From: Asterochloris sp. CNOR1
Taxonomy: Eukaryota; Chlorophyta; Trebouxiophyceae; Trebouxiales; Trebouxiaceae
Reading direction: 5' to 3'
Assembly: GCA_963969365.1 (NCBI GenBank)
Contig: OZ017747.1
Location: 2,790,001-2,854,000 of the forward strand
Length of the DNA: 64,000 nt
Made by a program: the position numbers and the translations under genes. Of the stretch, positions 21,072-24,000 are shown one piece after another. The notes beneath the pieces were generated by a model. The model ran no database searches. It was given only the letters and a program-made list of their open reading frames with translations, and was not told where the DNA came from. How positions within the stretch are numbered: position 1 is the first letter of the stretch; every line of letters begins with the position of its first letter.

Positions 21072-24000
21072 ATGGCTGAAGACATGGTACCCACCGTCTC
21101 CGATCTGGCTGCGGTCTATGGTTTGCAAGGTGCTTGCCAACATCAAGATGGCAAAGTAAATCGCAGACCTCACTTGGGGTCTGAGCTCACTGCAATGGCT
21201 TCACTGCAGGGGTGCCAGCTGCCCAGGAGCGCTACGCAAGAATTACTGATGCATTTGAGGCAAAGTTTGGAGCCAAGCCCCAGCTGTTTGCTCGCTCCCC
21301 AGGTTTGGCCACACCTGGCACACAAGGCAGACCTCAACTGTGTTCCCTGGCTCATTGCTGGAGCTCTGGAAGTCTCATGCAGGCCGTGTCAACTTGATTG
21401 GTGAACACATCGACTATGAGGGGTATGGCGTGCTGCCAATGGCCATCCGCCAGGTGACCGCCTGCGTGTGTGCCCACAATCCTGTCCTGAGATTCTGTGC
21501 ACCCATCTCTGTGCCCCACAAGATTACTGTGGGGCAGTGAGACCCTGTCCTTTAAGTCTGTGCAGCTCCTGCTGGGCTCTGTTGCAAACACTGTGCACTG
21601 CTGCACACCTGATGTAGGACACTGTTGTGGGGCTCAGGCAGCAGGGGGACACCCTGGTGATCACCAACACCAACAGCTCAAAGTACCCAGACAAGAGCTT
21701 CTCGGTCAATACAAAGCAGGCAGGTGACTGGTGCTTGTCAAGCGCAGGGGCTGTTCCAGTACGCGCTGGCCATTGCTAGCCACCTCACCAGTATGACTTG
21801 TCTGCAGGCGGTGGACATGGACAACCACAGCTGGGCAAACTACTTCCTTGCAGCCTACAAGGCAGGGACCAACCACCCGTGCTTGCACGCTCGGTGCTGC
21901 ATGTCAGGCATTTGCACAATTGAGAGTCCCCCACAGGCAGGGGAGCAGGTCCCAACTCCTACTCGTGCCGCTGCAGGGCGTGTTTGAGTTCCTCGAAAAG
22001 CGGGGCAGGGCTCCCTCCCCCGTCGGCATGCAGGTGGTCATCGACGGCCAGGTGCCCACAGGTACAACATCTCAGACCAGCCACCTCGGGCGCTGCCAGG
22101 CTCGCACCACGCAGCCTGCTGGCTCACCTGCAGCGCCTGCTCCTGAAGCTTTTCAAGCATGCTGGCTTGGTGTTGCACACCCGTCCCGAAGGGAGGCGGG
22201 CAGTGACCTCGCCCTGCATGTGCAGGCTCTGGGCTGTCCAGCTCTGCTGCCCTGACCTGCTCGGTGTCGCTGGCGCTGCTGGCCCTGTTCGGCGTGCCCG
22301 CCACCAAAAACGTGAGCACCCCGCCCCCGACCCCCTGGCTGAGGGTGCCTGCCGGGGCTGCCTGCAGGCGCGGGCCTGTCCAGCTCCTCCGCCCTGGTGG
22401 TGGTCGCCGCTCTGGCCCTGCTGGGGAGCCTCAGCCCGGGGCCCCTGCGTAAGGCGGTGGGCAGGCCCCTGCCTTATGTCTGATTCAGCCCCTGTCACTG
22501 CCTGCTGCTCTTGCACATGCACCATGCACCACGCACTGCATGACCTGCTGTGCATGCCAAGAAGGCCAGGGGCTCATGCAGAAGTAGCCTCAACGCATGT
22601 GCCTGATGCAGCCTACTGCCTTGCCTACGGCCCGTGTTACGCAGCACCATGTGGCACAGCACACCTCACGCTGCCCAAGCTTGTGCACGACTGGAAAGCT
22701 GGCCTGCAGGACGTGGCTGAGTTCACGACAACCTGCGAGCGCTATGTGGGCACTGAGTCTGGTGGTATGGACCAGGCCATCTCCCTGATGGGCATGCCCA
22801 TGATGGCCAAGCTGGTCGAGTTCAATCCGGTGGGTTGTCTGTACCTGCAGAGTTAGCTAGGGCTGCAAGGGTGCGATGTGGCTCGGCCAGGATGCACATG
22901 CAGCAAGGCCTACAGGCTTGAGCTAGGCTTGTCTCCCACAAAGCGTTGCCTGGCTCCGTCATGCTGCACCTGCCAGGGCCTCATTGTGGTCAGCTCTTGC
23001 TCTGTGCAAGCAGCATTCAGGCTTGCCTGGTGCAGGGCTGGCTGCTCACTTGATCGCAAGGCTCCTCCTAGGCAAGCTGTTGAGCTCTGCCATTGGCATC
23101 ATCTGGCGGGGGGCAGCTCGCAAAGAGCGTTTTTGGCATTCTCATGGCAGGCCATGCCGAGATCACTTAGCTGCAGAGGGCGGGGAGAGCTGACTAATTC
23201 GCTGATTCCAGAAGCGTATGCCCTCTGCTGCAGGTGCGGGCTGCGGACGTAAAGCTGCCAGAGGGCGCCACCTTTGTCATCGCCAATTCTCTCACAATCT
23301 CCAACAAGGCTGAGACTGCAGCGACGCGGTACAACATGCGTGTGGTGGAGTGCCGCCTGGCCACAGCTGTGCTGGCAAACCTGCTGGGCCAGCCCAAGGT
23401 CAGCCAAACGTGCAGACTATGGCCGCCAACCCTTTGCAATGGTTTCGTCGTCTGCATTGGCTTCGCTTATGGTCACTTGCGAGCGTACTACCCAATTGCT
23501 GTATGCCATGCTTTAGGCTACAGTCAGCAGTTTGTACATTGCTGTTGCCTCAGGATTTTGGTCAGCAATTGGGGTGCTGCTGTCCTTACCCTGTGCAGAG
23601 GTTCTCGCGCAATACTCTTGATGCCCTGCGTACAGGGGAAGGCAGCGCAGCTGAGCACGTTGAAGGAGCTGGAGCCCCTTCTACAGCCTAAGGATGGGTC
23701 CATTGTTAGGGCTGCAGCAGAGGCAGCCAGGAAGTACCTGCACAAGAAACCCTATGAGCAGGTGTGACCCTACTTTCATCTGCACAGCAGATGCTTGTGC
23801 TGCATGGGTCATGGAGGCCTCGCAGGTGCAGCTTTGTGCCTGACACCGACAGGATGCAGCACGTTCCGACTCCAATTGTGGGTGGTCAAAGCCTGGAGCT
23901 CGTTGGCCATCTGGAAACTGCCGCTGTAGGCCTGCTGTGCTCTGCAACCCATGTTGCACCCCTGGCTCAGCCTCTAGCGCTGGCTTGATCTGCAATTATG

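Follow-up and report, generated by a model that had tools for sequence, protein, structure and literature searches.

In the green alga Asterochloris sp. CNOR1, exon 7 of a galactokinase gene is probably a tandem duplicate, exons A and B, kept as a mutually exclusive pair, and we infer that both exons are used in RNA. This reading follows from splice sites that are intact in both exons, the logic of the reading frame, two peptides in keeping with the family and a gap between the exons that is apparently too short for an intron in this genome. The gene lies at 21072-25046 (+) in the 64,000-nt stretch of DNA that was analysed (the window), and its 12 coding exons, in a model built by homology with exon 7 being either A or B, are as follows.

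21072-21129, 21210-21302, 21383-21453, 21618-21719, 21808-21861 (+): exons 1-5
21977..22061 (+): exon 6, the common upstream exon, end phase 1, with the weak donor cag/GTACAA (1.8 bits)
22226..22311 (+): exon 7A, 86 nt, 29 residues with the first common with exon 6, acceptor 7.9 bits, donor 5.2 bits
22312..22367 (+): gap from the donor of A to the acceptor of B, 56 nt, G+C 0.79
22368..22456 (+): exon 7B, 89 nt, 30 residues with the first common with exon 6, acceptor 12.9 bits, donor 6.1 bits
22710..22829 (+): exon 8, the common downstream exon, start phase 0, acceptor 11.5 bits
23234-23398, 23636-23761, 24185-24432, 24770-25046 (+): exons 9-12

On profile and domain evidence the product is a galactokinase (TIGR00131, GHMP family), and galactose phosphorylation is its predicted activity. 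Against TIGR00131 (cut-off 226.65) the spliced protein scored 307.5 bits with A and 304.2 bits with B, so that both pass, and PF10509 (galactose-binding signature), PF00288 (GHMP_N) and PF08544 (GHMP_C) were above cut-off in both isoforms, the GHMP_N score being 66.0 with A and 58.2 with B. The best PDB matches of both isoforms were 2a2c and yeast Gal1 2aj4. The closest relative of solved structure is 2a2c, at 356.7 bits for the A form and 351.8 for the B form; it carries the name human N-acetylgalactosamine kinase, and relatives of the GALK2 type use GalNAc. The fourth and fifth introns of the gene (21720-21807 and 21862-21976) read as consecutive GC-AG introns, beginning cag/GCAGGT and aag/GCAGGG, respectively.

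Exons A and B are adjacent homologous exons (alignment score 52) that each run from phase 1 to phase 0. TGCAG stands before each of them, GTGAGC follows A and GTGGGC follows B, and their lengths, 86 and 89 nt, are both 3n+2. With A alone as exon 7 the gene gives an open product of 494 aa and with B alone one of 495 aa, while joining A and B leads to a stop after residue 238, omission of both to a stop after residue 157 and retention of the 56-nt gap to a stop after residue 229. The preliminary description had given the coordinates, lengths, TGCAG acceptors, GT donors, peptides and frame arithmetic correctly, and its statement that either exon alone keeps the frame while both break it was likewise borne out on recheck. 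The end of exon B (22449-22456) holds three possible donors within nine bases, GTAAGG, GC and the GTGGGC that gives the 89-nt form. The GC donor at 22454 may also be used; the resulting 86-nt form of B would keep the frame and give 494 aa. The GTAAGG donor at 22449 was rejected, as the 81-nt form breaks the frame and stops after residue 184. Exon B and the gap are G+C-rich (0.78 and 0.79, against 0.51-0.65 in the other introns of the gene). B is also one residue longer than the other galactokinases aligned, which counts against the exclusive-pair reading.

The model used to score splice sites was built from 44 introns that had been inferred in genes for chaperonins, HSP70, actin-family proteins and myosins (42 of 44 passed a stop check), giving the consensus CAG/GT(G/A)(G/A)G for donors and CTGCAG/G for acceptors; because these introns were chosen iteratively from candidates compatible with the frame, the model is biased towards its own consensus. 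B scored above A at the acceptor (12.9 vs 7.9 bits) as well as at the donor (6.1 vs 5.2 bits). Both donors are weak, with only 4 of the 44 training donors below that of A and 6 below that of B, and this counts against an exclusive pair. Only one training donor was lower than that of exon 6.

The fit of the two exons to the family depended on the profile used. With a profile of five eukaryote-like bacterial galactokinases (L005-L009) the region scored 80.1 bits with B and 77.6 with A, while A was ahead with a profile of 31 other bacterial galactokinases (68.0 vs 52.6 bits) and with all 36 (79.0 vs 66.9 bits), and these two results count against the exclusive pair. The five sequences come from bacterial MAG contigs (Bacteroidetes, Spirochaetales, KSB1 and two labelled only 'bacterium') and are 43-48% identical to the algal protein over exons 8-9, the other listed bacterial ones being 26-39% identical over a similar stretch. 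Among 2600 candidate exons, exon B alone scored 18.9 bits (E 1.7e-4) on the five-sequence profile, against 13.4 for A; on the other two profiles A alone was ahead, with 22.6 vs 9.2 and 22.9 vs 13.9 bits. In the 19-residue loop-helix, B shared 13-15 positions with four of the five sequences and A shared 8-9 with them, while L008 was nearer to A (12 matches, against 10 for B).

Neutral drift from A was then simulated. At the observed divergence of 17 of 29 residues, the score of B on the 36-sequence profile survived in 0 of 400 runs, and a stop had arisen in 151 of 400. The score was reached in 0 of 400 runs at 14 changes, 7 at 12, 31 at 10, 90 at 8 and 240 at 6, and on the five-sequence profile in none of 500 at either 9 or 17 changes and in a single one of 500 at 5. 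If B is only 9 changes from the ancestor, 66 of 500 neutral runs keep its 36-sequence score, which counts against the exclusive pair. Drift in the reverse direction, from B, reached the five-sequence score of A in 60, 10 and 0 of 500 runs at 5, 9 and 17 changes, respectively. B thus differs from A in a non-random way. Taken with the splice sites and the family fit, this gives B no appearance of a copy in decay.

The strongest rival is that one exon is a relic, a tandem duplicate lately silenced and still undecayed, with A alone or B alone in use. We regard this as unlikely, though it deserves to be weighed. Pairwise comparison of A and B gave dN 0.70 and dS 0.74, and a ratio of about 1 is alone no sign of constraint and counts in favour of a relic. 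Same-residue codons were identical in 9 of 12 cases, against 4.7 predicted by saturated draws (P 0.012), so that a very old duplication is not required, and after few changes, as the 6-change runs show, neutral drift keeps the score. Either exon could be the working one, since A fits the wider family better and B has the better splice sites. Against a relic, the frame, the phase and both splice sites have been kept in both exons, B, despite different residues at 17 of 29 codons, exceeds A on the near profile, and none of the neutral runs at 17 changes reached the score of B. No algal relative was found in the viral and genome contig collections searched.

The length of the gap bears on whether A and B can be joined. 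Intron lengths in the genome were estimated from neighbouring profile matches (178 of 189 listed rows, counted by hand), dropping pairs with a profile gap >12 or >5 kb apart. The 108 estimates had a minimum of about 75, a 5th percentile of 178 and a median of 368, with the caveat that profiles might read through very short introns; one profile row had a 21-residue excess without a stop, the translation of which reads by eye like a low-complexity protein insertion. Exactly placed introns (n=44) measured 174 to 885, and the shortest in the galactokinase gene is 80. The 56-nt gap is thus below all 108 estimated introns, and a branch point for B would sit less than about 50 nt from the donor of A. 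In a catalogue of human mutually exclusive exons, a donor-branch-point distance below 50 nt is treated as steric interference (PMC5740500). Joint inclusion of A and B is therefore probably blocked sterically by the gap. The predicted RNA fold over 22180-22500 was ordinary (z -0.75); imperfect inverted repeats lie around the pair.

A second rival is regulated unproductive splicing, in which the second exon would lower galactokinase output through A+B joining, skipping or the GTAAGG donor at 22449. These three products do stop early, after residues 238, 157 and 184. A poison exon, however, needs no open frame, right phase or family-like peptide, and B has all of them; moreover, the GTAAGG donor scored below 3 bits in the splice model and the gap argues against joining A to B. 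We consider this explanation improbable.

The homology of A and B was examined at the protein and DNA level. None of 20,000 composition-preserving shuffles of B attained their local alignment score of 52, while a second run of 50,000 shuffles (mean 23.9) had a maximum of 55 and so attained it at least once. Among the 2600 candidate exons, drawn from 161,728 nt of same-genome DNA (the window and 30 loci, some overlapping), the best match of A was B, here without its first residue (46, against 38 for the runner-up). At a constant offset of 142 nt, DNA identity was 28/34 around the acceptor and loop, 2/15 next, then 12/13 and 9/29 at the end, which fits a tandem duplication in which the loop and part of the helix were kept and the block between them was replaced. 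The flanking DNA is little alike (22/56 identical before, 12/56 after).

The genome searched comprises 56.4 Mb in 21 contigs. A search with exon B and its flanks returned, among the best candidates, the galactokinase gene only, and at the DNA level the pair has a single copy. Other GHMP kinase genes were rejected as the origin of B, for three loci, which by eye we take to be homoserine-kinase-like, IspE-like and glucuronokinase-like, gave scores against B of 34, 32 and 41 and against A of 49, 37 and 36, none of which attains the 52 of the pair. That B is a chance open stretch of intron resembling A is hardly credible: the pair was missing from the top rows of blind exon-exon BLAST scans of the window and A, L, S, V and G abound in both peptides, but the in-register DNA identity at a constant offset and the profile match of B, obtained independently of A, argue strongly against chance, as do the control of 20,000 shuffles and splice sites at corresponding places and phases.

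In those blind scans the pair was absent among the best 30 rows of one, where a longest-exon rule may have hidden A, and among the best 12 rows of 162 and of 182 in the others. The top-scoring neighbouring pair of candidate exons was a local repeat at 15548-15817 that is open on both strands, and the remaining top rows were weak. Elsewhere in the window a tandem array (37-nt unit, 3.1 copies, 81% matches) occupies 11263-11378. Of 10 long open frames tested against Pfam, 5 had no match; the others matched, on the plus strand, PALP (pyridoxal-phosphate enzyme, 53496-54395), a ZZ zinc finger (46475-47389) and Pirin (26957-27607) and, on the minus strand, C2orf69 (32044-32952) and the KH-like domain of EngA-type GTPases (61136-61675). 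The genome gave 31 matches to the chlorophyll a/b-binding domain, and one exon of these genes matches LHC chains from photosynthetic eukaryotes, LHCII among them (first 60 of 501 matches), in keeping with a green-lineage alga.

Mutually exclusive splicing, which the preliminary description had proposed, is thus the best-supported reading on splice sites, frame, family fit and gap, and the interpretation given there is upheld in part. Under mutually exclusive splicing, exon 6 would be spliced to one of the two exons, with exon 8 following, and the weak donor of exon 6 would suit a regulated choice. Inclusion of both exons would be disfavoured because both sites and a branch point would not fit into 56 nt, and transcripts with both exons or with neither, being out of frame with an early stop, would presumably be lost. 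The outcome would be two enzymes that differ solely in the ATP phosphate-binding loop and its backing helix.

What is exchanged is the GLSSS phosphate loop together with the helix behind it, which makes different kinetics plausible, and the two isoforms probably differ in kinetics, stability or regulation. The suggestion of differing sugar specificity was the weakest part of the preliminary description: the galactose-binding signature PF10509 (residues 34-79) is in the common exons 2-4 and GGMDQ is in the common exon 8, which makes a new sugar specificity less likely. ATP handling, turnover, stability or redox sensitivity would be likelier to be affected than the choice of sugar; with regard to redox sensitivity, A carries a cysteine at a position that is valine in B. 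Over exon 7 the human GalNAc kinase 2a2c matches B at 15/30 columns and A at 13/29, while over 19 residues yeast Gal1 2aj4 matches A at 13 and B at 10. The helix of B resembles those of the eukaryote-like bacterial galactokinases and human GalNAc kinase, and that of A resembles yeast Gal1. We know of no duplicated exons in the human GalNAc kinase or yeast Gal1 genes. It is conceivable, if somewhat doubtful, that one gene makes two galactokinases, one with a yeast-Gal1-like loop and helix (A) and one with the GALK2/eukaryote-like-bacterial form (B), and that a splicing switch in the catalytic core governs nucleotide affinity, turnover or even the range of sugars.

Metabolic-enzyme isoforms arise through mutually exclusive exons in PKM (exons 9/10). 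For OGDH exons 4a/4b, which are also mutually exclusive, the account cited here attributes the enforced choice to intron length and branch-point position (PMC7969005). Both genes encode metabolic enzymes like the galactokinase pair, but they are vertebrate, encode unrelated enzymes and have known regulation and physiology. In the human catalogue, mutually exclusive exons are neighbouring and similar, have the same frame and phase and shift the frame if joined (PMC5740500); there they are confirmed by junction reads, whereas the algal pair is judged from sequence. The nearest parallel is Volvox carteri cyn23, in which exons 4/5 are adjacent, homologous, both 106 nt, mutually exclusive and RT-PCR-confirmed (PMC4378016). 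Volvox cyn23 shares with the galactokinase gene the green-algal host and two adjacent homologous exons with lengths not divisible by three. As described there, cyn23 encodes a cyclophilin and its exons are equal in length and differ at 13 residues, whereas the galactokinase exons, known from sequence, differ at 17 of 29 codons and B is one codon longer.

Literature searches by titles and listings returned no description of mutually exclusive exons in galactokinase or GHMP kinases or of algal galactokinase splicing, and searches on plant tandem duplicated exons and metabolic-enzyme tandem exons returned no such case among the entries listed. The kind of arrangement is already known from Volvox cyn23, OGDH and PKM, and it is the site, the ATP loop of an enzyme, that is notable. 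The best-known examples of duplicated exons spliced in a mutually exclusive way come from animals, and cyn23 was the one RT-PCR-confirmed green-algal case that we met. If true, the galactokinase pair would be a second green-algal case and, from its place at the ATP-binding loop of a basic sugar kinase, an instance of the device tuning catalysis itself.
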